Below are positions 1-20,399 of a DNA stretch of 22,319 nt, piece by piece; position 1 is the first letter of the stretch, and every line of letters begins with the position of its first letter. This DNA is from a virus. A program made the position numbers and the translations under genes. The stretch lies in IMG/VR virus record IMGVR_UViG_3300044640_001505, positions 1 through 22,319 of that record, one strand, 5' to 3'. The notes beneath the pieces are model-generated. The model was given only the letters and a program-made list of their open reading frames with translations, was not told the DNA's origin and made no database searches.

Positions 1-1536
1 TTCAGGTTTATTAACTTGTACAGATAGATATCTACCTTTATTTATTCCAGAAGCATTTTCCTCAAGTGTGAATCCACCCAATACTTTTAAATCATAATCA
101 GTATCTCCAGCAGCTTTACTACCTTTAATAATCATACCTTCAAATGTCTGACCGTCTTCTTTTGTTTGTATTTTTTTATTTACTAACTTACCGTAGAAAT
201 AAATGTAATCACCATTACCTAAAGTAACTTTTTTGCCATTTAAAACTAAATAACAAGCTTTAGGAACTGGTGCTGGTGGGTTATCCACTAATGGTCCATA
301 AGGTCCTTGTTGAAAACTAGTATCTTTAACAGTTTTAATAGGGGCATCTATACCATCGACACTTACAGTAGTTCCTTGTTCCGCTTTCGCGTCAGTACTA
401 TTTTTACTTACTTGGTCTTTAGCTAAACCACCAATTTCTGATTTAACTTTAACTTTTGTTGTAATACCATCTTTTTCTAAACCTTGTTTTACTAATTTCA
501 AAACAGAGTCAATAGTTTTCTGATTATGTGTTTCAGCACAAGGTCCTCCCTTACAATCATTACTGTCAGGAACACCATCATTGTCAGAATCAGCATTACC
601 ATCAGTATTAGATTTATCAGAATGGAATTTTAATGTGATAGATTTAACTTGTTTCCCACCTAAGTCTGGGTCTTTGTTAACATCTTTTATTGTTTTAATA
701 ATATTGTCAGCAACTTGTTGTACTTGGTCAGGTTTTAAATCGGTAACTCCGTGGTCCCTTTCTATTACACCAACGGTACTACCATCGGAACCAACCTTAA
801 CTTTAACTATACCACCATCAGGATTAACCTTAACATGTACTTGATTATCTAAAGTACTATCAGAAGCGTTTTTAACTACACTATCAGAAACATCTACATT
901 ACCGTCATCAACTTGTTTTGTAGTAGTTTTAGTATGTGAACCAATAGCTCCTGTTACATAAGCCATAGCACCTATAGCAATAACACCAACTAAAACTTTA
1001 CCAACTACAGTATCACGTAAAAAATCTCCCAATTTACCAATAATAGATTGTCCTTTACTACCTCTAAGAACTTCCTCAACACAAGATTTAATTTGTTTCT
1101 GCATCCAAACCTTTTTAGCTTCCTCACTCTTGTCGGTTTTATCGGTACCATAAACTTCCCAATCAGCTTCTTTTCTTTCGATACATATTTGAGTAGCATC
1201 AGCTACAGCTTTTTGAGATTGTTGTATTGCTTGTTGTTGTTGTGCTGTTAAATTTTTCCCTGTATTTTGTTGAGCTTGTTTATTAGCAGTTCCCCATAAA
1301 TTTTTCCATGAATCTCTTAAACTAGACATGAAACTTTCTTCCATTAATCTTCTTTCACCTTCAGAAATAATTTTTTTACCACTATTCCTATCAATTAATG
1401 AAAGTTCTGTTAAAATAAAAGCTAGTTCTCTATATAAGTCTTCACCCTCAAGGGTAAGTATGTTGTATTCTAATTCATTGCTTTCTTTATTTTCAAACAA
1501 AAGAGTTAAAGCATTATCGTAATTAGGTTTTTTCAT
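1..1536 (-). CDS. Membrane-anchored putative virion protein with calcium-loop motif (3' end outside window)
   Basis: An open frame of 512 codons runs from ATG at 1536 to the window edge without a stop, so the C-terminus is missing. The N-terminal third is charged and Gln-rich (QQQQ near residue 100) and probably helical. Residues about 178-198 (VVGKVLVGVIAIGAMAYVTG) form one hydrophobic segment, consistent with a membrane anchor or fusion-type helix. At about residues 312-330 an acidic run DSDNDGVPDSNDC matches the calcium-binding loop of thrombospondin type-3 repeats; a GGPC follows, so a disulfide or metal site is possible. The rest is Lys/Asp/Gly-rich and likely extracellular or virion-internal. 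I do not recognise the family. Its start faces clpP across a 61-base divergent gap. The role as a structural or internal head protein is inferred only from its neighbours. Confidence 0.75.
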   Translation of the reverse strand, partial: MKKPNYDNALTLLFENKESNELEYNILTLEGEDLYRELAFILTELSLIDRNSGKKIISEGERRLMEESFMSSLRDSWKNLWGTANKQAQQNTGKNLTAQQQQAIQQSQKAVADATQICIERKEADWEVYGTDKTDKSEEAKKVWMQKQIKSCVEEVLRGSKGQSIIGKLGDFLRDTVVGKVLVGVIAIGAMAYVTGAIGSHTKTTTKQVDDGNVDVSDSVVKNASDSTLDNQVHVKVNPDGGIVKVKVGSDGSTVGVIERDHGVTDLKPDQVQQVADNIIKTIKDVNKDPDLGGKQVKSITLKFHSDKSNTDGNADSDNDGVPDSNDCKGGPCAETHNQKTIDSVLKLVKQGLEKDGITTKVKVKSEIGGLAKDQVSKNSTDAKAEQGTTVSVDGIDAPIKTVKDTSFQQGPYGPLVDNPPAPVPKACYLVLNGKKVTLGNGDYIYFYGKLVNKKIQTKEDGQTFEGMIIKGSKAAGDTDYDLKVLGGFTLEENASGINKGRYLSVQVNKPE

Positions 1537-1597: not shown

Positions 1598-2287
1598 ATG
1601 ACAGAATTTGATAAATATGCAATAAAGCATATGGGTATTGGCTCACAAACCCTACACGACTACCAAAATTTTCAATCAGCAATACCAAACGTGATTGGTT
1701 CAGTTACCCCAACAATTATTGAAGAACGTCAGATGAACGTTGCAGCAATGTCAGTATTCGATAGATTGATGATGGATAGAATTATTTGGTGTGCTGGTCC
1801 TGTTGATGATAGAATGGCTATCACGGTACAGGCACAACTTCTTTTCTTGTCACAACAAGACCCAAAGAAAACAATCACAATGCACATTGATAGTCCAGGT
1901 GGTTCTGTTAAATCAGGTCTCTCTATGGTTGACGTAATGAACTATATTGACACAAAAATCCAAACAATTAACACGGGTATGGCAGCTTCAATGGGTTCAG
2001 TCCTTTTAGGAGCGGGTACAAAAGGTATGAGAAGTTCTCTACGTTTTTCAAAAACAATGTTACACCAATCTAGTGGTGGTGCTGGGGGTAATATCCAAGA
2101 CGCACGTATTACTATGATTGAATGGGAAAAAACAAACAAATTGTTGTTTGAACTTTTGGGTGAGTATTGTGGTAAAAAACCTTCACAAGTTGAAAAAGAC
2201 GCTCAACGTGATTTATGGTTAAGCTCTGATGAAGCTTTGGAATATGGTATTATTGATGAGGTAATTGGTAAAGTCAAGAAAAAATAA
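1598..2287 (+). CDS. clpP: ClpP-like serine protease
   Basis: A 229-residue peptidase S14. ClpP forms a barrel that degrades proteins delivered by an AAA+ unfoldase in the cytoplasm; phage copies may redirect host proteolysis or process virion proteins. The catalytic triad looks intact: Ser131 in GMAASMGS, His156 in MLHQSS, Asp205 in QRDLWLSS. The oxyanion-strand region HIDSPGGSV is at 97-104. The N-terminal stretch (FDKYAIKHMGIG) and IIEERQMNV...RLMMDRII strongly recall the ClpP of Bacteroidota, which suggests capture from such a host. The residues after the catalytic His (QSSGG) depart from the usual HQPxGG. Length is normal for ClpP. It is a lone plus-strand gene between minus-strand genes, with its own A-rich leader and a strong terminator 3 bases after the stop. 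Confidence 0.92.
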   Translation: MTEFDKYAIKHMGIGSQTLHDYQNFQSAIPNVIGSVTPTIIEERQMNVAAMSVFDRLMMDRIIWCAGPVDDRMAITVQAQLLFLSQQDPKKTITMHIDSPGGSVKSGLSMVDVMNYIDTKIQTINTGMAASMGSVLLGAGTKGMRSSLRFSKTMLHQSSGGAGGNIQDARITMIEWEKTNKLLFELLGEYCGKKPSQVEKDAQRDLWLSSDEALEYGIIDEVIGKVKKK

Positions 2288-2320: not shown

Positions 2321-3265
2321 TTAATTTTTGTGTAAAGGTTTACCTTCATGACGCATTTTATCCAAGAACTGTTCAAAAATAAATAAAGTTTCTAAAAGAG
2401 TTAAATTATTTTTTTTAGCAAAAAGACCTAATGTTTCATAACCATCAACTATTGTTCTAGCTGAATCTTGTAAATAATTTTTACCACCTAAATGTCTTGT
2501 GGGTGAAAGGTAAGAATATACGTCTATAGCTAAGATTCGATATTTTTCTGAACCATCTATTGGATTAACTAAGTCATGTACCATGTTATTTAAGTCTTCA
2601 ATATCTTCTAAAAAACTGGCGTGAGACATTTCAATCTCATGAATCCAATTGTACCACCATTTAATATCACGAGCAATATAAATACCTGGAGAATTTTTTC
2701 TATTAGATTCGTATTCACCAGTACCGTAAAAGAATTCCTTAAAGTTTTCTAATGGGTCTATTTGATTTGTCCATTCAAAATCTTCCATCTCTTCTTTAAT
2801 TATTTTTTTAATAGAAATAAAAGATTCTTTTTTAACCTTTTTATCTTTAAAACTTGGTTCGGTATTAGATGTTACCCCCTTTAGTTCTTTGGGCTTTTTA
2901 TCACTACCTTTTACATTTACAGTATAATCTCGTTTATCTTTAAAGATAATATCATGTGTTCCATCACCATTATCTTTAATTTCCATTTTTAATTTTGGTC
3001 CTTTTCCTGATTTGATTCTGTGTATCTGATTATCACCCAAGTATTCACCTTGTATGATTACGTCTTTACCATTTCTTTTTTTAGAAAATGGTTGTTCTTT
3101 AAAAAAATCATTTCTTAAACCTATAACTTCACAGTCACCACCGATAGTAGCACTAATTAAATCGTCATTGTATTGACCACCAGATTTACCACATTCACAA
3201 GTCTTCCACTTAGTATGTACTAATCTAACAACATCTTCACAAGTATTACATCTGATTAACTTCAC
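2321..3265 (-). CDS. Zinc-ribbon protein of unknown function, GTG start
   Basis: 314 residues. Cys6-x2-Cys9 and Cys23-x-Cys25 form a likely zinc knuckle in an N-terminal domain of about 55 residues. A Lys/Asp-rich middle (about 56-145) follows. Residues 148-160 (ESFISIKKIIKEE) resemble the N-terminal leader of the lysozyme encoded at 16786, but here the motif is internal. The C-terminal half (about 161-314) is Trp- and acid-rich, probably helical, and not recognised. The start must be GTG at 3265: a TAA lies two codons upstream in frame, and the next ATG would remove the zinc ribbon. It overlaps the preceding lipoprotein gene by 20 bases and is last in a three-gene operon. Function unknown; phage protein by context. 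Confidence 0.8.
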   Translation of the reverse strand: MKLIRCNTCEDVVRLVHTKWKTCECGKSGGQYNDDLISATIGGDCEVIGLRNDFFKEQPFSKKRNGKDVIIQGEYLGDNQIHRIKSGKGPKLKMEIKDNGDGTHDIIFKDKRDYTVNVKGSDKKPKELKGVTSNTEPSFKDKKVKKESFISIKKIIKEEMEDFEWTNQIDPLENFKEFFYGTGEYESNRKNSPGIYIARDIKWWYNWIHEIEMSHASFLEDIEDLNNMVHDLVNPIDGSEKYRILAIDVYSYLSPTRHLGGKNYLQDSARTIVDGYETLGLFAKKNNLTLLETLFIFEQFLDKMRHEGKPLHKN

Positions 3266-3365
3266 TTTTTACTTCATTTTTACTGTAAGCATCACAATCA
3301 CCATTTCTTGTACTTTTACAAGAAAATAAAATAGTGACACCTAATATTATTAAAATTAACCTCAT
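3246..3365 (-). CDS. Tiny lipoprotein (39 residues)
   Basis: A short frame starting at an ATGA overlap with the HAD gene's stop. It encodes a hydrophobic stretch RLILIILGVTI, a lipobox LFSC with the lipidated Cys at residue 16, then a short polar tail containing a second Cys (GDCDAYS). This is a complete signal-peptidase II type lipoprotein signal with a mature part of only 24 residues. Start and stop overlap both neighbours, so it is probably translationally coupled. Small phage lipoproteins can be outer-membrane spanin subunits (Rz1-like) or host-surface modifiers; nothing here decides between them, and no spanin partner was identified beside it. The lipobox and the ATGA overlap are visible; the function is not. 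Confidence 0.62.
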   Translation of the reverse strand: MRLILIILGVTILFSCKSTRNGDCDAYSKNEVKSEVNQM

Positions 3366-4222
3366 TCTTTCTCAATAACTATTTTTTTATTCCCACCGTC
3401 AGATGTATCATATATAACAAAGTGTATTTCAGGATACATTTTAGATAATTCATCTTCCAGTAACTCAACCGTAGCTTTAACATTTCTAACATCATCATCA
3501 GAAAAACCAAAAGATACTTTTGTATATTCACCACTTTGGATTAATTTTTCTACGTTTTTAAACACCTTTTCTACAAAGTGAGCAATAGCCACTTTTTTAG
3601 AATTTTCAGGATTTGAAGCCCCACCTTTTACATTAAGGCCAAACCTATCACCAAACTCTTCAGAAGTAACAGGGTAAAACTCACCCATCTCATCTAAATA
3701 TAAATCTATTAATTGTTTATTGTTTAATCCTTTTACTAAACTTTGTGGTAATTCTTTTTTGATATTATTAATCATCATCATTTTTTCATCATCACTTAAT
3801 ACCGTTTGAATGAAAAGTTTTACCCCCTCTTTTAATGTGTTTGGACTATGACCCCTAGCAGTATTAATTGCGAATGGGTTTGCGTATATTAATGATTCAA
3901 TAAATTTTTTGTAACTTGGTGCAAAACTTTTATTATTAATAGCTTTTTTTGCGTCAATTAAAAAAGCCTCATTATTTGTAAAATCGGAAAATGAATCAGG
4001 GGTTGTTCTATAATTAGGGTCAGTTCTAAAATGAGCAAAATCTTCTGTGGAAACTCTTAATGGGACCCACTTACCGTTTTCATTCTTCTCCATTTTAACC
4101 TCTGTAGGCATCCTTAAAATGTTGTCATCCCAATCAAAAACATACATACGAATATTTTTTTCTTCTTTAAGATATTGTTGTAGTTTTATTTTTTGTGATT
4201 CTGTTAAAATAATTTTTTTCAT
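3362..4222 (-). CDS. HAD-superfamily phosphatase with N-terminal leader
   Basis: 286 residues. HAD hydrolases cleave phosphate esters through an aspartyl-phosphate. Motif I is FDWDDN with nucleophile Asp30 and Asp32; motif II is INTARG with Thr121; a motif III Lys is likely at 209-210; motif IV is GFSDDD with Asp242-244. All key residues are present, so it should be active; the substrate is unknown. A long helical cap insertion lies between motifs I and II and again at about 125-205. Before the HAD fold there is a 22-residue extension (MKKIILTESQKIKLQQYLKE) of a type seen on several other proteins in this window and not needed by the enzyme. It is the first gene of an overlapping operon (ATGA into the lipoprotein gene). 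Confidence 0.82.
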   Translation of the reverse strand: MKKIILTESQKIKLQQYLKEEKNIRMYVFDWDDNILRMPTEVKMEKNENGKWVPLRVSTEDFAHFRTDPNYRTTPDSFSDFTNNEAFLIDAKKAINNKSFAPSYKKFIESLIYANPFAINTARGHSPNTLKEGVKLFIQTVLSDDEKMMMINNIKKELPQSLVKGLNNKQLIDLYLDEMGEFYPVTSEEFGDRFGLNVKGGASNPENSKKVAIAHFVEKVFKNVEKLIQSGEYTKVSFGFSDDDVRNVKATVELLEDELSKMYPEIHFVIYDTSDGGNKKIVIEKE

Positions 4223-4231
4223 ATTTTTTAA

Positions 4232-4258
4232 AATATTTATGATATATAGATAAATATT
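4232..4258. promoter_or_regulatory. Inverted pair of AATATTTAT boxes in divergent gap
   Basis: AATATTTAT at 4232-4240 and its reverse complement at 4250-4258 are separated by nine bases in the 65-base gap between the divergent HAD (-) and membrane-protein (+) genes. Each copy reads towards one gene, suggesting back-to-back promoters or a dyad binding site. Confidence 0.4.
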
Positions 4259-4260
4259 GT

Positions 4261-4268
4261 TATATTTG
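4261..4268 (+). promoter_or_regulatory. TATATTTG box upstream of membrane-protein gene
   Basis: An exact TAnnTTTG, the Bacteroidota -7 consensus, lies 19 bases before ATG 4288. No clear TTTG partner is present at the expected upstream distance, so the promoter call is tentative. Confidence 0.35.
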
Positions 4269-4287
4269 ATAAAAAATAGATAAAGTT

Positions 4288-4608
4288 ATGACACTAGAAG
4301 ATTTTAAAGAACAATTTAGACTAACCCCTGAACAGGAGATTGAGTACAAAAAGCAAAAAGAAAGTAATTTGCGTAAAAAAAATATTCTTGGTTTAATTAC
4401 AAAACATTCTTTTGGTTTGTCTTTTGTCACCTTAACTATGTTAACTATGACACCAATGAACGTCACACTACCTTTTTTTATTGTTTTTTTATTGTCAGGT
4501 TTATTTTTCAATAACAAGTACCAATTGTACTCAGATATTGTACATGTAAATAACATGTCATTGGAAGACCATTATAAATTTTTTGAGGGACTTAACGGTG
4601 ATAAATAA
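4288..4608 (+). CDS. Small two-helix membrane protein
   Basis: 106 residues. The N-terminal 32 are charged (EDFKEQF...KKQKESNLRKK), followed by two hydrophobic segments at about 33-55 and 58-75 separated by a short turn (TPMN), then a polar tail of about 30 residues. This predicts a hairpin in the membrane with both ends on the same side. The family is not recognised. A holin or host-membrane modifier would fit the topology, but the lysozyme gene is far away at 16786, so lysis is only a guess. It is a single plus-strand gene with its own upstream boxes and a dedicated terminator. Confidence 0.75.
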   Translation: MTLEDFKEQFRLTPEQEIEYKKQKESNLRKKNILGLITKHSFGLSFVTLTMLTMTPMNVTLPFFIVFLLSGLFFNNKYQLYSDIVHVNNMSLEDHYKFFEGLNGDK

Positions 4609-4633
4609 AAAAACCCCTTTAAAAGGGGTTTTT
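4607..4633. terminator. Bidirectional terminator
   Basis: The stem CCCCTT/AAGGGG with loop TAA is flanked by A7 on the left and T5 on the right. It lies between two converging genes (4288 + and 4640 -) and can end transcription on both strands. Confidence 0.85.
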
Positions 4634-4639
4634 ATAATT

Positions 4640-5239
4640 TTATAGTTCGGTTCCACTACCAGTAGATTTGTCATAACCACTTCTAGGTTTACCTCTTTCA
4701 ATCCAATAACCCATTGTTTTATCTGGAGCCATAAGACCTTTATCCCAAGTAGCGTAAAGCATTCTACCCTTACTTTTTCCAATAAATATTAAATATTTAT
4801 TAGCTGAGTTTTCACCATACTTACTTTCATCTCTTTTAATAGTGTTGTAAATTCTTTCAGCGTTTGAGTCCATAGAAATTATTTTTTGTCCTCTAGCCAT
4901 AAGTTCTTCTGGTGTTTTAAAAATCATACCTTCTTCTAGTTCGTCTTCAGTAATTCCATAAGTTTCCATTATGTTTTTAATTTCTGCCATTCTAGATTCA
5001 GAAACTTTTCCATGAATGTTTTTCTTAACTTCAGGAGCTTGTTTCATTTTGTGTTTTTTAGATACAGGAGCTTTTTTCATTCCATCACCCATATCATCAT
5101 TTTGTTCAGCTCCCATATTCATTTTATGTTTTTTGGCAGCGTCTTTAACTATCATCTTACCTTCTGTAGATTCCATTACAAAAGATTCCACAACTCTTTC
5201 TAGTTGTTCTTTTCTGATTTTATATCTAATCTTACTCAT
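4640..5239 (-). CDS. Putative virion protein with N-terminal leader and EDELEEG module
   Basis: 199 residues, not recognised as a known family. The N-terminus (MSKIRYKIRKEQLERVVESF, then VMES) is basic then amphipathic, like other leaders in this window. Residues 35-75 are Lys/Met-rich and low in complexity, with two copies of KKHKM (36-40, 61-65). EDELEEG at 98-104 is shared exactly with the upstream 184-residue protein. The C-terminal about 95 residues look like a small folded domain (KYLIFIGKSKGRMLYATWDKG). It is the second of two adjacent small genes downstream of the tail sheath gene; eleven bases separate it from the one before. A minor structural or internal head protein is the best guess from context. 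Confidence 0.72.
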   Translation of the reverse strand: MSKIRYKIRKEQLERVVESFVMESTEGKMIVKDAAKKHKMNMGAEQNDDMGDGMKKAPVSKKHKMKQAPEVKKNIHGKVSESRMAEIKNIMETYGITEDELEEGMIFKTPEELMARGQKIISMDSNAERIYNTIKRDESKYGENSANKYLIFIGKSKGRMLYATWDKGLMAPDKTMGYWIERGKPRSGYDKSTGSGTEL

Positions 5240-5250
5240 TTTATTTTTTT

Positions 5251-5805
5251 TTATTTGTTTCTGTAATTAATTAACTTATTAAAGTTATCCATATTTTCAG
5301 TTAAGAATGAAGGGTTAAAAGTTTTTGTAACTGATTCGGCTAAATCTTTAACTGATTCTTTAACCTTATCCTCACCCTCAACAGGATAAGTTTTACCATT
5401 AAATTCAAACTCAGTTTTACCTTCTTTTCTAGCTGTTTCTAATGCTCCTGAAAAAGCGTTACCCTCCTCAAGTTCGTCTTCTTTCATGTAACTACCTTCT
5501 TCCATTTGTGACCCACACCCAGACTCACAAAGACCTTCTTTAATTACTCCACCACACTCAGAACAAGTTTTATCTTCCATATAGTCTTCATTAGTATTAG
5601 CCTTGTTTTTTTCTGCTTCTTGATTCTTTTTATCAATATCTCTATGATACTCAGAAGGTGAATTTGGATTGTATTCTTGGTCCATTTTGTTCATAAATTC
5701 CTCACCACCTGGCATTGCGTAAATAGCGTCTTCGTCTCGAACATACTCTTTTAATGTAGATTCGATTAAGGTATTTAATTGTCTTTTTGTTATAATTTTT
5801 GACAT
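5251..5805 (-). CDS. Putative virion protein: leader, zinc ribbon and EDELEEG module
   Basis: 184 residues. Leader MSKIITKRQLNTLIESTLKE (1-20), an acidic Asn/Glu/Lys-rich linker, then Cys81-x2-Cys84, Cys93-x3-Cys97 as a compact zinc knuckle. EDELEEG (109-115) matches the next protein. It is followed by a short module GNAFSGALETARKEGKTEF then NGKTYPVE, a pattern I associate with small structural proteins of marine phages; this recollection cannot be checked here. The last 40 residues are a Lys/Asn-rich tail. The leader box AATATTTAT ends 15 bases before the start. It sits between the sheath terminator and the 199-residue gene and probably forms a two-gene unit with the latter. Confidence 0.73.
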   Translation of the reverse strand: MSKIITKRQLNTLIESTLKEYVRDEDAIYAMPGGEEFMNKMDQEYNPNSPSEYHRDIDKKNQEAEKNKANTNEDYMEDKTCSECGGVIKEGLCESGCGSQMEEGSYMKEDELEEGNAFSGALETARKEGKTEFEFNGKTYPVEGEDKVKESVKDLAESVTKTFNPSFLTENMDNFNKLINYRNK

Positions 5806-5872: not shown

Positions 5873-8665
5873 TTATAGATTGTCGAATGACGCTCCTGTT
5901 GAAGTTACGTTGAACTCTAAGATTATGAATTCTAAAGCTGGTACAGGTTTTAAAAAGATTTTACCTCTTAATTCATTTCTGTCAATTTCTTCAGGGTCAC
6001 TTGATAATTGAACTCTAAAGTCAGCCAAACCTCTTTCTCTCTTAATGTTTTCCAAGATTGGGTTAACAAGTGATAAGAATTGATTTCTTACGATTTGGTC
6101 GTTTTGTTCGAACAACAATCTTACTGCTACTGCTGAAATCAACTTTCTTGTTTGTAGTAACAATCTTCTGATGTTCAATCTATCAAGAGCTGAATCAGCT
6201 ATTTGTAAGTTTTTGTTACCCCAAATTACAACTCCTTGGTCAGAGAATGTAGCCATTGGGTTAATTCTTCCTTCATATAAAGTATCTCTATCAGCTTCAG
6301 TCAATTTAACTCTAGCTTGAATAGCTGAAGTAAGACCCCTTGTGTAACCAGCTGAAGCGAACCAAGGGAATGATACGTTATCAGTTAAAGCGATGTTACG
6401 TACTACTTCATATGTAGGTGGTAACCAAACGTTAACATTATTTTCAGTATCTTTTGATTGAATCCATGGCCAATAAGTGGCTGTGTAGTTAGAGTCAATA
6501 TCTGCTGCTTCAAGTAAACCTACCATGTCATCAGCTGTATAATTACTAATTGTTGCGAACCCAATACTAGTTAATTGAACAACATTGTTGTAAGTAACAC
6601 CTTCAGGAGAAGTTAAGATATAAACTGAATCAGCTCTTTCTTCTTCAACCATGTCAATTGTTAAACCAACCAATGAATTATTTTCTGAGTAATCAATACC
6701 AGGTGTTGCTAATACGTTAATGTTTACTGCTTCAGGATTTCTAAATGTGTAGATACCTTCTTGGTATGCGTAGTAATCAGAAGTACCTTGAGTAGCGGTA
6801 ATGTTTTCAAATTCACCGTTAAGTAAACCTGCGTCAAAACCAGCTCTACCAACTCTATATCTATCAGTATTTGTTCTTGTATTTCTATAACAGTTCCATC
6901 CGTCAAATCCTAAATAAGGTGCGAATGTGAATTTTCTAGCTTGAATAGACTGATAAGAAGTACCTTCAATACCAGCGATTGTTCTAAACGGACAACATCC
7001 TACTTCAAAAGTACCTGCTACTGTAGCTCCACTATCCATGTGGAAACCTTTTGTTGTAGCTGTCCATTGATTAGGTGATGCGTCATTAGTATAACCTTTC
7101 CAATTAAACATGTTTTGGTCAATACCAACTGTATCAGAAATACCTAAGTAAACTTTTCTAATTGTATCATTAACAATATCGTATTGTGTTTTGTAGTTTA
7201 ATTGTGGTGCTAATACACCTACAGGATAATCTCTAACAACATAACCTTCATAACCCGCTGCGAATGAGTCAATTGGTGCTTCAGCGTTCATAACCATCAT
7301 AATGTATCTACTCTTTAAAGAGAATTCACCGTCAGCGGTACCTATTCTTCTAGCAATATAGTTATCATCAGCAGGATTCATAACAACTTTACGGAAAGAC
7401 TCAATAATTGTTGGTCTTGTATCGTTGTCATAAAATTCTCTAACAAGGATATCAAATTGTTTTGTATCAGGTTTGATGTTAGCTATTGAGATTTTAATCT
7501 CTTTGTTACCCGAACTACCGTCAGAGATAGAAATAAATTTGAATAATTTTTCAACAAGGTTACCACGTAATTCAGAAACAACCCAAGGAGTTTCAGGAGT
7601 TTGCCATTGTTGTTTATAATTGTTAAAATCGTTTGTGTATGTTACGGTAGAATTTAATCCTAAGATATATCCAGCTGAAACTAAATCAGCTAATTTGTTT
7701 GGATAAATTTCCTCAACAAAAATATAAGGGTCTCTATCAAAACAATCAGTACCAAGTACTCTTGGCATATAATCTCTTGAGGATGTGTTTAAAGAAACTT
7801 CGTAAGCAGTTACTGCACTTGTTGTGGCGTTTGTAGCTGAAAGAACAAAGTTAGCTTCCGCGTTAGTAGCTGTTGTAAGTGGGTTCATAACCACACCATT
7901 TGAAGTTTGTAAAGTTCTAAATGTAAGTGTATCGGTTACTGTATTTACATCACCATAATCACCTCTAGAACGTAACATTGCTAATGCCATACCTTCATAT
8001 TCAGAATAAGAAGATGCTGAATAAGTTGTAACTGTACCAGAAACAGAACCAGTATTCGCACTAGATATATAACTAGTTTGGGTTATATTTGCTGATGTCC
8101 CTATAAAAGAAAGACCTGTTTTTGTGAATACAATACCTTCAGGGTAAGTTGCTATATCATTTGGTATTGGTTCTGTTGTTGTTAATGTTGGTCCGTTAGG
8201 GAACAATCCTAAATTGTATAACGCTTGTACGTTAGCGTTAGAAATTGAACCAAAAGTGTTTCCTGTAAAAGATGCTGTCCACCCTGTAGTTGTTACCGAT
8301 ACAATTGTTGTTGGGTCGTAGTTAGCACTTGCTGTAATTAACCAAGCCGCTCCTGCGTCATAACCAGTTAAACCAAGAATTCTTGTAACAAACATTTGGT
8401 TTGATTGTTGTAGATAACTTTTAGCAATGTAAGGTAATTCATACATTGGTTTTTTATCTTCTCCCCCAAATTTCTTAGAGTTTAGACCACCGAAAATAGC
8501 TAAGAACTCTTCATAGTTTGTAATGAAGATTGGTTCAAAAGCTGGTCCTTTAGTCGTTTCACCAACAACACCCAAAGTTGTAACACCTACTTGTTGCGCT
8601 ACGAAACTTAAATCTTTTTCTGATGTAAATACACCTGGTGATACAAATATTTTGTCTGATGCCAT
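5873..8665 (-). CDS. Contractile tail sheath protein
   Basis: 930 residues, so well above T4 gp18 (659). The sheath polymerises around the tail tube and contracts to drive DNA delivery. The N-terminus DKIFVSPGVFTSEKDLSF is the typical sheath opening, and the last about 130 residues carry the conserved C-terminal domain: LNIRRLLLQTRKLISAVAVR, a long helix, then NQFLSLVNPILENIKRERGL and a final strand FIILEFNV. The middle (about 100-330) is Ser/Thr/Asn/Gly-rich and probably forms surface-exposed domains inserted in the core fold, which explains the extra length. It has a leader with an AATATTTAT box 38 bases upstream and its own terminator. Expected to be among the most abundant virion proteins. 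Confidence 0.95.
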   Translation of the reverse strand: MASDKIFVSPGVFTSEKDLSFVAQQVGVTTLGVVGETTKGPAFEPIFITNYEEFLAIFGGLNSKKFGGEDKKPMYELPYIAKSYLQQSNQMFVTRILGLTGYDAGAAWLITASANYDPTTIVSVTTTGWTASFTGNTFGSISNANVQALYNLGLFPNGPTLTTTEPIPNDIATYPEGIVFTKTGLSFIGTSANITQTSYISSANTGSVSGTVTTYSASSYSEYEGMALAMLRSRGDYGDVNTVTDTLTFRTLQTSNGVVMNPLTTATNAEANFVLSATNATTSAVTAYEVSLNTSSRDYMPRVLGTDCFDRDPYIFVEEIYPNKLADLVSAGYILGLNSTVTYTNDFNNYKQQWQTPETPWVVSELRGNLVEKLFKFISISDGSSGNKEIKISIANIKPDTKQFDILVREFYDNDTRPTIIESFRKVVMNPADDNYIARRIGTADGEFSLKSRYIMMVMNAEAPIDSFAAGYEGYVVRDYPVGVLAPQLNYKTQYDIVNDTIRKVYLGISDTVGIDQNMFNWKGYTNDASPNQWTATTKGFHMDSGATVAGTFEVGCCPFRTIAGIEGTSYQSIQARKFTFAPYLGFDGWNCYRNTRTNTDRYRVGRAGFDAGLLNGEFENITATQGTSDYYAYQEGIYTFRNPEAVNINVLATPGIDYSENNSLVGLTIDMVEEERADSVYILTSPEGVTYNNVVQLTSIGFATISNYTADDMVGLLEAADIDSNYTATYWPWIQSKDTENNVNVWLPPTYEVVRNIALTDNVSFPWFASAGYTRGLTSAIQARVKLTEADRDTLYEGRINPMATFSDQGVVIWGNKNLQIADSALDRLNIRRLLLQTRKLISAVAVRLLFEQNDQIVRNQFLSLVNPILENIKRERGLADFRVQLSSDPEEIDRNELRGKIFLKPVPALEFIILEFNVTSTGASFDNL

Positions 8666-8703
8666 TTTTTAATTTTATTTTTTTTTCTTTCGTTATTTTA
8701 TTA

Positions 8704-8712
8704 ATAAATATT
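8704..8712 (-). promoter_or_regulatory. AATATTTAT box before tail sheath gene
   Basis: AATATTTAT followed by TAATAAAATAACG on the minus strand, 38 bases before ATG 8665. The distance is longer than at the other sites, leaving room for an A-rich 5' leader. Confidence 0.45.
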
Positions 8713-8733
8713 GGTGACTTTACCAAAAATTTT

Positions 8734-8757
8734 ATTTTGTTGTTATAACAACAAAAT
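8734..8757. repeat. Perfect 24-base palindrome, possible operator
   Basis: The half-site ATTTTGTTGTTA is followed at once by its exact reverse complement. It lies between the divergent sheath (-) and ribbon-helix-helix (+) genes. The lack of a loop and of a T-run argues for a protein-binding site rather than a terminator. Confidence 0.6.
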
Positions 8758-8762
8758 GAGTG

Positions 8763-8785
8763 TGACAAAAAAGATACTTTTGTCA
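8763..8785. repeat. Second inverted repeat, possible operator
   Basis: TGACAAAA and TTTTGTCA are separated by seven bases (AAGATAC); pairing can extend outward with one mismatch. The arms share the ACAAAA/TTTTGT core with the palindrome at 8734, and the repeat ends 20 bases before the regulator's ATG. Confidence 0.55.
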
Positions 8786-8805
8786 TACTTATCAATAAAT
8801 AGTAG

Positions 8806-15364: not shown

Positions 15365-16789
15365 ATGATTATTAGTGAAAACATACTACAGGCTTTGTTA
15401 GTCGAAACTGGTATACAAAATATAAATACATTAGCTAAAAGATATCAAAAAGCTAAAATTTATTTTCATCAGGATTTAGATGGAGTTACTACGGCAATTG
15501 CCATGAAAAATTATTTAGAAAACAACGGTATTGAAGTTGTTGATGTTGAAGTAATTCAATACGGTGATAAAGAATTCTCAATTAAAAAACCTGACGCTAG
15601 TGGTGAAATAATGCCTGTATTGGTAGATTTTGCTCACGGTAAACCAATGTTTGTTATACATACTGACCACCACGATTCACAAGTTGGTGTTGAAAAAAGT
15701 ACGTCAACAAGTTTTAGACACTCAAGGTCAAACGTTGAGACTATCTCTAACGTTCTTTCACCATCAGACATTTTCCCATCAAAAGATATTATGATGATAT
15801 CTACTGTAGATAGTGCTGATTATGCTAGATTAGATATTACACCAGATGATGTTATGAACTATGTTTTTACCCTAGATAAAGGAAAAGATTTAGAACGTAA
15901 TAAAATTAGTATGGCACTTGTAACTAATAAATTATTATTAGCTTACAAAAATAAACCAAAATTTTTAGAAACTCTTGTGATGGAATGTACACCATCACTT
16001 TTAAACATTTACCAAAATATAGTTAGATTAGCAAAAGAATATGGTTACGCCACAGCTCAAGAAATGAAAGTTAACCTTTCCAATTATATTGAGGTCCAAT
16101 CAAAAAGTGGTAATGTAGAATACGATGAAGAGTATGGGATTGTAAAACAATACGGTGGGGGTTCTATGTTTAAACCAGGTTCTTATGATAGATACGTACC
16201 TTTTAAATTATACCCTAACGCCAATTTTTTGGTTATAACATGGCCATTAGGTTTATTACAAGCTTCTTGTAATCCTTATAAAAAGGGTAGGGAACTTAAA
16301 GGTGTTAATTTAGGTGAAATAGCACAAGACGTTTTAAGTATATTTAAATCTGAACTAGAAAACAAAATTATATCTATTGATACTGTAAAGTATTTTGCTG
16401 AAAAAAATAAAGAATTTTCGGAAGAATCTGTTGGTTTTAGTTTTAATGATATGGTAGCTATTTTAGGTGATACTGAGAATGGTATTATGGGATTAGATGA
16501 AATACCTAATGGTGGTTCACCAGATTATACATTAGAAAGATGGCAAAACGCCATTAAAAAAATAATGGATAAACCTTACACATCACTTTCTGATAGAGAA
16601 ATTAAAGCTTTAAAGATGTTAAAAATTACTGGTTGGGATATGGTTCAGGCTAATTCTGGTGGCCATAAATGTATAACTAATATATCAGGATTAATGTATT
16701 TTGGTAAAGACGGTGTTCCATTTTTAAAGAGATTTTCTGAAGAATTTGTTAAACAATTAAAATTTAAAATAGATACAGAATCTTTATGA
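15365..16789 (+). CDS. DHH-family phosphoesterase
   Basis: 474 residues. DHH phosphoesterases (RecJ, NrnA, pyrophosphatases, cyclic-dinucleotide phosphodiesterases) use two metal ions to cut phosphoester bonds. All four N-terminal motifs are visible: HQDLDG (Asp37, Asp39), VDFAHG (Asp88), DHH at 101-103, and STVDSADYAR (Asp149, Asp152). Near the C-terminus SGGHK (431-435) recalls the GGGH substrate-binding motif of DHHA1 domains. The region between (about 165-420) is long and not recognised. Whether it is a nuclease or a dinucleotide phosphodiesterase cannot be decided; an anti-signalling role is possible but speculative. The first 15 residues (MIISENILQALLVET) resemble the leaders on other proteins here. 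It overlaps the lysozyme gene by ATGA. Confidence 0.87.
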   Translation: MIISENILQALLVETGIQNINTLAKRYQKAKIYFHQDLDGVTTAIAMKNYLENNGIEVVDVEVIQYGDKEFSIKKPDASGEIMPVLVDFAHGKPMFVIHTDHHDSQVGVEKSTSTSFRHSRSNVETISNVLSPSDIFPSKDIMMISTVDSADYARLDITPDDVMNYVFTLDKGKDLERNKISMALVTNKLLLAYKNKPKFLETLVMECTPSLLNIYQNIVRLAKEYGYATAQEMKVNLSNYIEVQSKSGNVEYDEEYGIVKQYGGGSMFKPGSYDRYVPFKLYPNANFLVITWPLGLLQASCNPYKKGRELKGVNLGEIAQDVLSIFKSELENKIISIDTVKYFAEKNKEFSEESVGFSFNDMVAILGDTENGIMGLDEIPNGGSPDYTLERWQNAIKKIMDKPYTSLSDREIKALKMLKITGWDMVQANSGGHKCITNISGLMYFGKDGVPFLKRFSEEFVKQLKFKIDTESL

Positions 16790-17823
16790 ATATCAGAAAA
16801 ATTATTAGAGAAGAAATCCAAAGTCTAAGTTCTAATAAAATAGAAGAATCTAATAAATATTTAGATAAATTTTTACATAAACTTTTATTATTAAATGAAG
16901 TTAAAGATGTTCTCAGCCCCGAATTTGAATGGGACGTTATTTCTAATGACAAAACTAGTCCAGAGTATGTGTGGGATTTTCCACAAGAAACTAAAAAAGA
17001 ATTAGATTTATCTAAAAAATGGGTTAAAACAAAAGAAGATGTTATTGGGTATCTAAATCTTTTATTGAAAAAAATAAAATCTTTACCCAACCAACTTAGG
17101 AAAAAAATAATAAAATATGTTTTGGCATCTTTTTTAGGTATTTTAACCGTAAACCAAATAACTAGTATCACCAACACCATTGAAGGCAATGATTATCAGA
17201 GTGGTATTAGATTTGAAATGCCTTCATTTAAAAAAGAAACACCTGTAGTTAAAACACAAAAAATTAGAAAACCTAGCCAAAGATTATTTAAACATTTGAA
17301 AAAAGAAGAGGGTATTGGTGGTAAACCTGTTTTATATTTCTATAATTTAGGTGATGGTGCTTATACCACAGGTTATGGTCACGCTGTCTTTTCTAACCCC
17401 GAAAGAGGTAGTACGGGGGGTGATTATAGTTTTGTACCAAATCATGAAGATATTATACCTTACAATAAACGTAACCCTGGTAAAAAAATTACAAGAATTA
17501 CTAGAGAACAGGCTGAACAATTATTACAAGATGATATGTTAAAAGCTTCTGAAGGTGTTAATAATATATTAGATGGGTGGAATAAAAAAGGTATAGAACC
17601 TGAAATTACACAAGGTATGTATGATGCTATGGTTTCTATAACCTATAATCATGGTGTGGGTAATTTAAGGACAAGCAAATTTATTCAATACGTTAAACGA
17701 AGTGAGTTCCAAGAAGCTAAAGAAGAGATAAAAAATATCTCAAGTAATATGTTTGACGAATATCCAGGTTTAAAAACTAGAAGAGAACGAGAATCTGAAA
17801 TGTTTAAAATTTCTAGGGTTTAA
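16786..17823 (+). CDS. Membrane- or virion-associated GH24 lysozyme
   Basis: 345 residues. The C-terminal half (about 163-345) is a T4-type lysozyme that cleaves peptidoglycan: catalytic Glu175 in KKEEG, then LGDGAYTTGYGH with Asp190 and Thr194. The Asp sits two places later than in T4 lysozyme (KDTEGYYTIGIGH), a spacing I recall from other phage GH24 proteins, so I take it as active. Domain QGMYDAMVSITYNHGVGNL follows as expected. The N-terminal half is unusual: leader MNIRKIIREEIQSL, an acidic Trp-rich stretch, and a hydrophobic segment at about 108-125 (IIKYVLASFLGILTVNQI). This suggests a signal-anchor endolysin or a virion lysozyme. Translationally coupled to the DHH gene. Confidence 0.88.
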   Translation: MNIRKIIREEIQSLSSNKIEESNKYLDKFLHKLLLLNEVKDVLSPEFEWDVISNDKTSPEYVWDFPQETKKELDLSKKWVKTKEDVIGYLNLLLKKIKSLPNQLRKKIIKYVLASFLGILTVNQITSITNTIEGNDYQSGIRFEMPSFKKETPVVKTQKIRKPSQRLFKHLKKEEGIGGKPVLYFYNLGDGAYTTGYGHAVFSNPERGSTGGDYSFVPNHEDIIPYNKRNPGKKITRITREQAEQLLQDDMLKASEGVNNILDGWNKKGIEPEITQGMYDAMVSITYNHGVGNLRTSKFIQYVKRSEFQEAKEEIKNISSNMFDEYPGLKTRRERESEMFKISRV

Positions 17824-17862: not shown

Positions 17863-19437
17863 ATGATTAGTGTTATTGTTTCTTCTAATAAAGACAATTT
17901 ATGTGTTGATAAGTTTAAAAATCACATAAAAAAAACTAGTGGTTTAAAGGAATATGAAATATTATTATATAATAATCAAAATGAGTTTTCCTTATCAGAA
18001 ATTTACAATAGAGGATTAAAAGAATCTAAATACGATATTCTAGTTTTTTGTCATGATGATATTTTTTTATCACAGAATTGGGGTGTAAAATTGTTAAATG
18101 ATTTTTTAAAAAATCCTGAGTTTGGTGTTATAGGTAAAGCCGGTTCTTGTTTCATGTCTGAATCAGGTATTTTTTGGAGCAAAAGGGACCAAACTATGGT
18201 GGGACAAGTTTACCACAGAAATAATAACAAAAAAACGTTAACCAAATACTCACCTAAATTTAATGATTTAATTGAAGTAGTCACCCTAGATGGACTCTTT
18301 ATTTCTGTTGATAAAAATAAAATTAAAAAACTATTTGACGAGGATATAAATGGGTTTCATTTTTATGACCATTCTTTTTGTGTTAGTAATTTTATTGAGG
18401 GTGTAAAATTAGGTGTTACATTTTCTTTCGACATTACACACAATTCAGAGGGTAAACCTAATGAAGAATTTTTTAAAATAAAAGAAATTTTTTTAGAAAA
18501 ATATAAAAAATATTTACCATTAGATTTAAAACCTAAAAATATATTTTACGAAAAAATAAAAAGAAAAAATTTTAAAAAATTAAAAAAAGTAGCAATAATA
18601 ATACCAACAAAAGGAAATTTAGAACTTTTAATAAATTGTGTTAATTCATTTTACAGTAATTGTGACCATGACATATTTAGTATTTTTATTGCTGATACTG
18701 GGTCTACAAAAGAAGAATTGGACCAAATAAAAATTAGTTTTGAAGATTATAAGAATTTAAAAATAATTGAGTATGATTATTATAATTTCGCTAAAATAAA
18801 TAACGATGTTGTTAAAAACTATGTAGGTAACGGTCACGATTTTTTATTATTTTGTAATAATGATATTGAAATCAAAAATGATGTTCTTAGTTCTATGTTA
18901 AACGTTTTTTTAACAAATAAAGATTGTGGTTCTGTTGGGTGTAGGTTACATTACCCAAATAACACCATACAACATAATGGAGTTATAGTTCATTCCGATA
19001 AAGTTTTAAATGCTAACAATTTTGAAGAACTTTATCCATCCATAAATCTAACCCACGAAAAATTAAATAACTACTATAATTTTAATAACACTGTTAGAGA
19101 AGTTTTTTGTAATACAGCCGCATTACTATTAATAAATAAAGATTTATTTATTAAAATGGGACTTTTTAATGAAAATTATAATAATTGTTTTGAAGACGTT
19201 GAGTTAGGTATAAAAGTATTATCTAATGGGTTTAAAAACTATAACGATGGTTATTCTGTTGCTTACCATAAAGAAAGTTATACCAGAAAAAATGATGAAA
19301 AATATTTAGATGAATCTAAAAAAGATTTTAAAGAAACACTTCACCCTTTTATATTGGAAAATAAAAATTTGGTTAGTAAATGGATTAAAGTTATAAATAC
19401 TTTTATATATAAAAATGATAAATTTATTAAAATATGA
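17863..19437 (+). CDS. Two-domain family 2 glycosyltransferase
   Basis: 524 residues with two GT-A domains. Domain 1 (1 to about 205) starts ISVIVSSN and has FCHDDIFLSQNWG with His64-Asp65-Asp66 and GVIGKAG, the style of StrF/Glyco_tranf_2_5 proteins. Domain 2 (about 242-480) is a rhamnosyltransferase-like GT2: VAIIIPTKGN, ADTGS, the nucleotide-metal site CNNDIE (331-336), and FEDVELG (443-449) with a likely base Asp445, then AYHKES. Both keep catalytic features, so it could add two sugars. Donor and acceptor are unknown; candidate targets are virion proteins, phage DNA or host surface glycans. The gene is strikingly A-rich: the linker segment 18541-18600 has six G/C in 60 bases by hand count. 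Its stop overlaps the next start (ATGA). Confidence 0.88.
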   Translation: MISVIVSSNKDNLCVDKFKNHIKKTSGLKEYEILLYNNQNEFSLSEIYNRGLKESKYDILVFCHDDIFLSQNWGVKLLNDFLKNPEFGVIGKAGSCFMSESGIFWSKRDQTMVGQVYHRNNNKKTLTKYSPKFNDLIEVVTLDGLFISVDKNKIKKLFDEDINGFHFYDHSFCVSNFIEGVKLGVTFSFDITHNSEGKPNEEFFKIKEIFLEKYKKYLPLDLKPKNIFYEKIKRKNFKKLKKVAIIIPTKGNLELLINCVNSFYSNCDHDIFSIFIADTGSTKEELDQIKISFEDYKNLKIIEYDYYNFAKINNDVVKNYVGNGHDFLLFCNNDIEIKNDVLSSMLNVFLTNKDCGSVGCRLHYPNNTIQHNGVIVHSDKVLNANNFEELYPSINLTHEKLNNYYNFNNTVREVFCNTAALLLINKDLFIKMGLFNENYNNCFEDVELGIKVLSNGFKNYNDGYSVAYHKESYTRKNDEKYLDESKKDFKETLHPFILENKNLVSKWIKVINTFIYKNDKFIKI

Positions 19438-20399
19438 AAATGAATACAAATTTAATAGAACACAAACATGTGGTAACAAAAGAAGATAGGCAAAAACTTA
19501 TTAAACAAAAATCGCCAGTTATTTGGTTAACTGGGTTATCAGCGTCAGGTAAATCAACAATAGCAAATGAATTAGCACTTAGACTCCAAAAAGAAGGTAA
19601 ATTAGCTTATATCTTAGATGGTGATAATATTAGAATGGGCCTTAACAAAGATTTAGGTTTTTCTGATGATGACAGAAAAGAAAATATTAGGAGAATTGCT
19701 GAGGTAGCTAAACTTTTATCTGATTCTGGTGTAATTGTTATTACAGCATTTATTTCACCATTTAGAGAAGAAAGAGAAAAAGCAAAAGATATTATTGGTA
19801 GAGATAACTTTTTAGAGGTTTATGTAAAAGCAGATTTAGATATTTGTGAACAACGTGACCCTAAAGGGTTATATAAAAAAGCGAGAGCAGGTGAAATTAA
19901 ACAATTTACTGGAATAGACTCACCATACGAAGAACCAATTAAACCATTTAGAACACTAGACACTGATAAATGGTCGATAGAACAATGTACTGACGTGATT
20001 ATAGTAGACTTAAAAGACTTAGGTATCATTGAATCTAATTTGAAGGAAGTAAACAACTTAGATAAAAGAAATACCATCGCAATTGATTTTGATGGTGTTA
20101 TTCATAAATATTCTAAAGGATTTAAAGGTTTAGGCAATGCTTACGACCCTCCCATGGAAGGTACTGAAGAATCTCTTAAGAAATTACATGAAGAGGGTTA
20201 TATCCTTAAAATTCTCTCATCAAGACCAAAAGAGGTTATCAACCCTTGGTTAGAAAAATATGGTTTATCTAAATACATAACTGAGGTTTCTAACCATAAA
20301 TTCCCGGCAACTGTCTATATCGATGATAGAGGTATGTTGTTTGAAAATTGGGAAAAGTGTTTAAATGAATTACAATTACACCCTAAAATAAAAAAATAA
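19434..20399 (+). CDS. cysC: APS kinase fused to a HAD phosphatase domain
   Basis: 321 residues. Residues 1 to about 200 are a full adenylylsulfate kinase, which phosphorylates APS to PAPS, the sulfate donor: P-loop GLSASGKST (34-42), DGDNIRMGLNKDLGFS (62-77), DDRKENIRRIAEVAKL and the AFISP loop with Ser108, plus GLYKKARAGEI and FTGIDSPYE. Residues about 212-315 are a small HAD domain: IDFDGVIH (Asp218, Asp220), LSSRP (Ser262/263), Lys289, YIDDRG (Asp297, Asp298). The fusion of kinase and phosphatase on one chain is unusual; the HAD could remove a 3'-phosphate or act on another metabolite. No ATP sulfurylase or sulfotransferase is visible nearby, so the sulfate role is not proven. It follows the glycosyltransferase with a four-base overlap. 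Confidence 0.9.
   Translation: MKMNTNLIEHKHVVTKEDRQKLIKQKSPVIWLTGLSASGKSTIANELALRLQKEGKLAYILDGDNIRMGLNKDLGFSDDDRKENIRRIAEVAKLLSDSGVIVITAFISPFREEREKAKDIIGRDNFLEVYVKADLDICEQRDPKGLYKKARAGEIKQFTGIDSPYEEPIKPFRTLDTDKWSIEQCTDVIIVDLKDLGIIESNLKEVNNLDKRNTIAIDFDGVIHKYSKGFKGLGNAYDPPMEGTEESLKKLHEEGYILKILSSRPKEVINPWLEKYGLSKYITEVSNHKFPATVYIDDRGMLFENWEKCLNELQLHPKIKK

Follow-up and report, generated by a model that had tools for sequence, protein, structure and literature searches.

Passages of PMC12373910 describe how internal proteins of phage T4, marked by a packaging signal, are injected, and report at least 10 such genes in T-even relatives, recognised through a shared N-terminal signal sequence on diverse bodies (Repoila 1994, cited in PMC12373910). 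According to sections of PMC5694885, the propeptide of T4 gp23 is 65 residues long, and N-terminal propeptides are cut from head and ejected proteins of phages SPN3US and phiKZ at x-x-E motifs (A-x-E in SPN3US, S-x-E in phiKZ); several SPN3US propeptides exceed 100 residues, that of gp45 has 20, and in phiKZ gp93 the cut lies at residue 13. Here we analysed short N-terminal leaders on unrelated proteins in a 22,319-nucleotide stretch of viral DNA, IMG/VR virus record IMGVR_UViG_3300044640_001505. This 22.3-kb record (the window) encodes a T4-like tail sheath (phrog_23) and is part of a T4-like phage. Its 184-residue, 199-residue and HAD-like proteins, on which the leaders were first noticed, were found at 100% identity in five IMG/VR records, including G003, which is near-identical to the window, has 226 kb and 31% guanine plus cytosine (GC), and was used for genome-wide counts.

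Our analysis suggests, with a probability of roughly 0.76, that the leaders are capsid-targeting propeptides of the T4 type whose dialects differ from lineage to lineage. In the proposed mechanism, the leader, a short N-terminal peptide, would mimic a segment of the phage's own scaffold or protease core and draw its protein into the prohead core; a gp21-family protease would cut after [L/I]-x-E, the leader would be discarded, and the mature protein would stay in the head and enter the cell along with the DNA. We infer core docking, cleavage, presence in the virion and injection of the leader proteins; delivery into the host would follow by analogy with T4.

Leader profiles across the genome

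Two leader types were defined. Type A, represented by 33 sequences, reads about MKNLIKKILKES; type B reads about MKKIILTESQLKKL and is represented by 12 sequences, one of 13 having been left out before profile building. Profiles were trained on open reading frames (ORFs) of other phages without a blastp homolog in G003; the 1336 training ORFs were reduced to 997 by dereplication and to 499 by removal of G003 homologs, and a score of 10 bits or more counted as a strict match. These held-out profiles matched 19 of the 236 N-termini of G003, compared with 1 of 1024 internal-methionine windows and 0 of 2360 shuffled N-termini (Fisher test, 1.4e-13). Each of the 19 has at least one [ILVF]xE within its first 40 residues, which is partly by construction, and leader length ranges from about 7 to 38 residues. 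The recurring basic leader with a hydrophobic-x-Glu step that the initial annotation had described on three proteins is thus real and extends well beyond them. A short-peptide tblastn search against phage records gave no match.

Chance or base composition might produce such a pattern, since AT-rich genomes favour N-termini rich in Lys, Ile and Glu; the low GC content of G003 and the poor joint alignment of the three leaders first named fit this idea. The internal-methionine and shuffled controls speak against it, as does the synonymous variation of codons among six leaders compared. Two control phages chosen regardless of GC content and protease type, crAss001 and phiST, gave 0 of 97 and 0 of 63 N-termini at 10 bits. 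On the internal-methionine, shuffled and control-phage comparisons we rejected composition as the explanation, and we regard it as very improbable. G003 and the uncultured megaphage W01 were covered in full, the megaphages W02 and W03 over 390.5 kb each and W04 over 137 kb; T4 was covered up to its last 9.9 kb, crAss001 up to its last 2.7 kb, phiST over 50 of 79 kb, Flavobacterium phage immuto over positions 1-150,000 of 160,410, and phage Mel-JY01 over 11,977-104,000 of 190,001.

The N-termini quoted in the initial annotation for the HAD-like, 199-residue and 184-residue proteins are all present in the sequence as written, and the bodies of the three proteins are indeed unrelated: from residue 26 on, the best blastp E value between different bodies was 0.12, which is not significant. 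The HAD-like protein (286 residues; 3362..4222, minus strand) begins with the type B leader MKKIILTESQKIKLQQYLKE (4163..4222), in which candidate cuts lie after residue 8 (LTE↓S) and residue 20 (LKE↓E), arrows here and below marking a candidate cut or leader end; its body starts at about RMYVFDWDDNIL. The 184-residue protein (5251-5805, minus strand) begins with MSKIITKRQLNTLIESTLKE (5746..5805; candidate cuts LIE↓S and LKE↓Y), and the 199-residue protein (4640-5239, minus strand) with MSKIRYKIRKEQLERVVESFVME (5171..5239; candidate cuts VVE↓S and VME↓S). The profile search of all G003 N-termini, which had been proposed as a check, gave a divided answer. The HAD-like leader ranked fourth among the 236, the held-out type B profile giving it 22.2 bits; the leaders of the 184-residue protein (2.9 bits, p 0.066) and the 199-residue protein (1.4 bits, p 0.157) were not recognised. 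The three leaders do not form one sequence class: compared with shuffled sequences, similarity was found between the 199- and 184-residue proteins (p 0.002), was marginal between the HAD-like and 184-residue proteins (p 0.09) and was absent between the HAD-like and 199-residue proteins (p 0.91).

The leader of the 184-residue protein is retained in one relative found through its body (L007, 64% identity) and in four distinct members gathered by leader pattern, where conservation is partly by construction. That of the 199-residue protein is retained in two body-found relatives, L135 and L136, which differ in their C-terminal halves, and in five distinct members gathered by leader pattern. In both families the leader is retained while the downstream sequence diverges; they give no proof of exchange on unrelated bodies, because the pattern-gathered members were chosen by their leaders and their bodies are still partly homologous. 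The HAD-like enzyme is most likely, and the 184- and 199-residue proteins are plausibly, cargo of the head.

The HAD assignment of the 286-residue protein, made in the initial annotation, finds no backing beyond the motifs DWDDN and GFSDDD, which we take to be those of this family. A Pfam search at E 0.1 gave no match, and an AlphaFold model built from nine sequences (mean predicted local distance difference test, pLDDT, 71.2) gave no fold match against the PDB at E 0.001; the HAD-like fold is unconfirmed because the model returned no significant PDB fold. The model places a low-confidence helix at residues 8-24, in the leader. Homologs of the protein were found at 20 viral loci and also in five megaphage records.

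A second N-terminal motif accompanies some leaders. A D[FL][DE]W-type motif lies within residues 9-40 of 5 of the 236 G003 proteins (0.66 vs 0.20 per 1000 residues elsewhere) and of 11 of the 997 proteins of other phages (0.34 vs 0.09 per 1000 residues). It is found on only 6 of the 54 type A leaders of other phages.

Leader types on homologous bodies and the junction site

The leader behaves as a detachable module, as had been proposed, since the same bodies carry differing leaders in the HAD-like, lysozyme, DHH and RYMFFSN families. Homologs of the HAD-like protein begin with either type B (MKKFLITETQYKKLRKSLLE↓NK) or type A (MSNRNLIKKILRE↓VT) leaders, and megaphage homologs with T4-like ones (MDILRFDQFIRE↓SK, MIKKFNQFLE↓NN). 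Among nine aligned HAD-like homologs, K3 and E20 are the sole invariant leader residues, and L or I stands at P3 of E20 in eight of the nine. In the lysozyme family a shared body follows either a type A or a type B leader, and an [L/I]-x-E is visible by eye at around residue 35; both kinds of leader also occur among the nine members of the RYMFFSN family. Leaders of the DHH homologs are 7 to 19 residues long; among 41 distinct N-termini, 39 have [L/I]-x-E immediately ahead of the body. Of the two exceptions, L213 begins at the body and the homolog of megaphage record L009 has its site one residue earlier. Four lysozyme homologs (L182, L183, L185 and L191) have additional N-terminal sequence between leader and body, which looks GNAT-like by eye in L191.

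We next considered the bodies that follow the leaders. With cut-offs of 8 bits for G003, which returns the same 19 proteins, and 9 bits for W01, which gives 48 of 49 proteins (one is without a single-stretch reference), a set of 67 leader proteins (19 from G003, 48 from W01) was assembled, and its bodies fell into 60 clusters. When the 67 were aligned, the single nearly invariant column was Glu, partly by construction since the proteins were picked by profile. Pfam matches to the bodies (E 0.001) included PPK2, T4-type RNA ligase, phage lysozyme, methyltransferase, HNH, DHH and ankyrin repeats; at least 42 of the 67 proteins match no Pfam family, because 25 families were found with one member each. 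A leader-bearing 2H phosphoesterase of W01 (LR756502, 473773) matches 2_5_RNA_ligase2 best (2e-11) and lies just above the cut-off of the anti-CBASS family Acb1 (28.4 vs 27 bits).

Head genes and the megaphage dialect

G003 encodes a head module in T4 order, consisting of the large terminase, portal (phrog_213), prohead protease, scaffold-like protein and gp23-family capsid protein (phrog_138). The protease belongs to the gp21 family (PF03420, E 2.7e-28; phrog_207), which supports the T4-type protease logic of the initial annotation. The scaffold-like protein is acidic and 425 residues long; its position, composition and sites point to a scaffold, an identity that would follow from these features. 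Two genes upstream of the protease, G003 22297-23376 encodes a product that is glutamine synthetase-like by eye (its PHROG match is of unknown function).

T4 gp21 prefers L/I-x-E sites. In relatives of G003, [LIM]-x-E stands 9-12 residues before a FETVVFP anchor in 57 of 57 distinct capsid-protein N-termini, a count based on the anchor itself (57 distinct FETVVFP-bearing N-termini from 80 loci), and this site aligns with FLTE↓AEIGG of T4 gp23, after residue 65. The proposed hydrophobic-x-Glu step is seen in two places, as an [L/I]-x-E usually found at the junction of leader and body and as the T4-equivalent site of the capsid protein. The N-terminus of T4 gp24, MAKINELLRE↓S, which we take to be its exact cut, scored 7.8 bits with the type A profile.

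The scaffold-like protein encoded upstream of the capsid gene in the G003 group contains a loose EI..LVKESL segment in 58 of the 60 proteins scored; on the type A profile the 58 segments range from 1.4 to 10.6 bits, with 6.05 as the median. Upstream of the capsid gene, 73 distinct ORFs had been collected, and a pattern that itself contains 'EI' removed 13 of them; the resemblance of the G003 scaffold depends on one conserved segment. Such a segment would suit the proposed mimicry, and it would also suit leader proteins that are themselves prohead core components consumed in maturation, like T4 gp67, gp68 and gp22; the tag would then be real and nothing would be delivered. The position of two leader proteins, of 92 and 174 residues, whose genes lie in G003 between the protease and the scaffold-like gene, favours that alternative. 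It is nevertheless unlikely, since PPK2, RNA ligase, methyltransferase, 2H phosphoesterase, lysozyme and DHH bodies would be odd for a consumed scaffold.

In the four uncultured megaphages W01-W04 (634-735 kb), the leaders appear to resemble the T4 capsid-targeting sequence. A megaphage profile trained on W03 and W04 matched 43 of 868 N-termini of W01 and 28 of 495 of W02; among internal windows its matches were 3 of 2917 and 1 of 1666, and in G003 it matched none of the 236 N-termini. With the type A profile, G003, W01 and W02 gave 14 of 236, 0 of 868 and 2 of 495 matching N-termini; with the type B profile, 5, 0 and 1 of the same sets matched. Since each profile matches its own lineage and hardly the other, the dialect follows the lineage, and HAD and DHH bodies are common across lineages. 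The pattern [YFW]..[FY][IL].E occurs at the N-termini of 22, 18, 27 and 10 megaphage proteins, where 3.2, 2.3, 2.2 and 1.5 were expected, and at none in G003, where 0.4 was expected.

Each megaphage has a protease-like protein matching PF03420 that runs on into tandem repeats such as NIAYSEYIAENLDK. Of the internal matches to [YFW]..[FY][IL].E, it accounts for 11 of 43, 10 of 34, 12 of 34 and 9 of 24, the most of any protein of the examined parts; a second W03 protein has seven. By eye, another W03 protein of 1691 residues with AIGTFVKYIIEIQ repeats (LR756501, 21458-26533) was judged probably unrelated to the leaders.

These observations also bear on the idea that the leader is a helix serving localisation to, or docking at, a target other than the head, such as a membrane, a replication compartment or a host factor, the Glu pattern being a property of the helix. 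The leaders are basic, with an amphipathic character judged by eye, and the helix predicted in the HAD-like leader would agree with such a role. That the junction [L/I]-x-E is retained while upstream residues vary, that the capsid protein has the same site, and that the megaphage protease-like protein carries leader-motif repeats all argue against it, and we consider a docking helix quite improbable.

Several results weigh against capsid-targeting propeptides as the reading of these leaders. The leader classes were first defined by eye; because of this, the test sequences were held out but the choice of pattern was not. With the megaphage profile, homologs common to the training and test megaphages were kept in. 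At 10 bits, 1 of 234 T4 ORFs matched, and this was nrdC.3, which is no known internal protein. The T4 internal proteins IPI-III and Alt scored 0.0-6.1 bits with the megaphage profile (IPI-III, 3.0-6.1 bits); the profiles are thus tied to their lineages and fail to detect established capsid-targeting sequences. Strict matches were few in cultured relatives, with 3 of 206 N-termini in immuto (internal windows, 1 of 641) and 1 of 110 in Mel-JY01; further leader-like N-termini are seen by eye in immuto, a phage of Flavobacterium sp. LMO8 for which a prohead core protease is annotated. The megaphage protease-like protein matches PF03420 at E 4e-6 to 1e-4, under Pfam's cut-off, and W03 has a second such match. 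In a sliding-window scan the protease-like protein ranked first in W02 only, and that of W01 and the G003 scaffold fell outside the top 8. Among megaphage HAD-like homologs, the leader of L009 reads FLE, that of L010 has KNE and lacks [L/I]-x-E, and L011 is leaderless. The low scores of the 184- and 199-residue leaders, and of a DHH leader described below, belong here as well.

Further leaders in the window and comparison with known systems

Other leaders in the window lie on both strands. A lysozyme-domain protein (16786-17823, plus strand) begins with a type A leader (16786..16899; MNIRKIIREE..., to LNE↓V at residue 38) that scored 14.1 bits with the held-out profile and is one of the 19 G003 matches that is also in the window; a hydrophobic stretch precedes its lysozyme domain by eye. 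The DHH-family protein has the short leader MIISENILQALLVE↓T (15365..15406, plus strand), unrecognised by the profile at 2.9 bits. An 806-residue protein that extends past the window has a possible weak leader by eye, MKKPNYDNALTLLFE↓N (1492..1536, minus strand; 1.1 bits). Within a 314-residue protein (2321-3265, minus strand), a leader-like stretch lies mid-protein (2789..2821; FISIKKIIKEE, then MEDFEW); with the type A profile it scores 14.2 bits, more than any other internal window of G003. The relative L126 (6894) encodes the C-terminal part of this protein alone, beginning with the leader MRSLIKKILKEDFEWASQVDPL, which suggests that the 314-residue protein is a fusion.

Genes of other kinds were also noted. 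The window encodes a ClpP (1598-2287, plus strand; PF00574, 1.4e-57) and one protein in which a HAD-like domain follows an APS kinase domain (19434-20399, plus strand); the product of G003 6316-8799 is ClpC-type ATPase-like by eye.

The proteins delivered in the first minutes of infection are known for few phages. Should the leaders prove to be packaging tags, the proteins that uncultured jumbo and mega phages deliver could be predicted from sequence, early-acting and counter-defence proteins could be flagged among genes of unknown function, and leaders attached as modules to proteins of choice might bring these into phage heads in laboratory systems. A bolder proposal, on which we are evenly divided, is that in large T4-like phages the leaders work as a lineage-specific password system, in which the leader of every lineage is a copy of part of its own scaffold or protease core, any gene gaining a leader becomes injected cargo, and the delivered proteome could be deduced just from the N-termini. 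The cargo would then include RNA ligase, PPK2, the Acb1-matching 2H phosphoesterase, methyltransferase, HAD-like, DHH and lysozyme proteins and many unknowns. In the sections of the open-licence PMC literature available to us, we found no description of leader dialects or of leader-motif repeats in a protease-scaffold protein, which does not imply that they are unpublished.

The closest counterpart is the T4 capsid-targeting sequence of IPI, IPII, IPIII and Alt. Like the leaders described here, it is short, stands at the N-terminus of several unrelated proteins and has a hydrophobic-x-Glu end; the gp21-type [L/I]-x-E ending is usual in our leaders, with exceptions that include the megaphage HAD-like homologs L009 and L010. 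T4 likewise combines a gp21-family protease with the same type of site in gp23, and in G003 the corresponding protease and capsid site are recognised by sequence alone. The T4 pattern [YFW]..[FY][IL].E is enriched among the megaphage leaders, but IPI-III stay at 3.0-6.1 bits with the megaphage profile and no G003 N-terminus matches that profile. The class profiles do not recognise the 184- and 199-residue leaders.

The systems also differ. T4 has a handful of proteins with a capsid-targeting sequence, whereas G003 has 19 strict bearers and W01 has 43, and the G003 sequences are of types A and B. The propeptide of T4 gp24 is similar to type A leaders but stands on a capsid vertex protein, not on cargo. 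As far as the consulted sections of PMC5694885 describe them, SPN3US and phiKZ share with the leaders the N-terminal propeptides cut at x-x-E, but the A-x-E or S-x-E cleavage motif of those phages was not found here, the junction residues being [L/I]-x-E. Compared with the T-even internal-protein genes, as presented in passages of PMC12373910, the phages analysed here have more bearers in a single genome, with leader dialects that are specific to the lineage.

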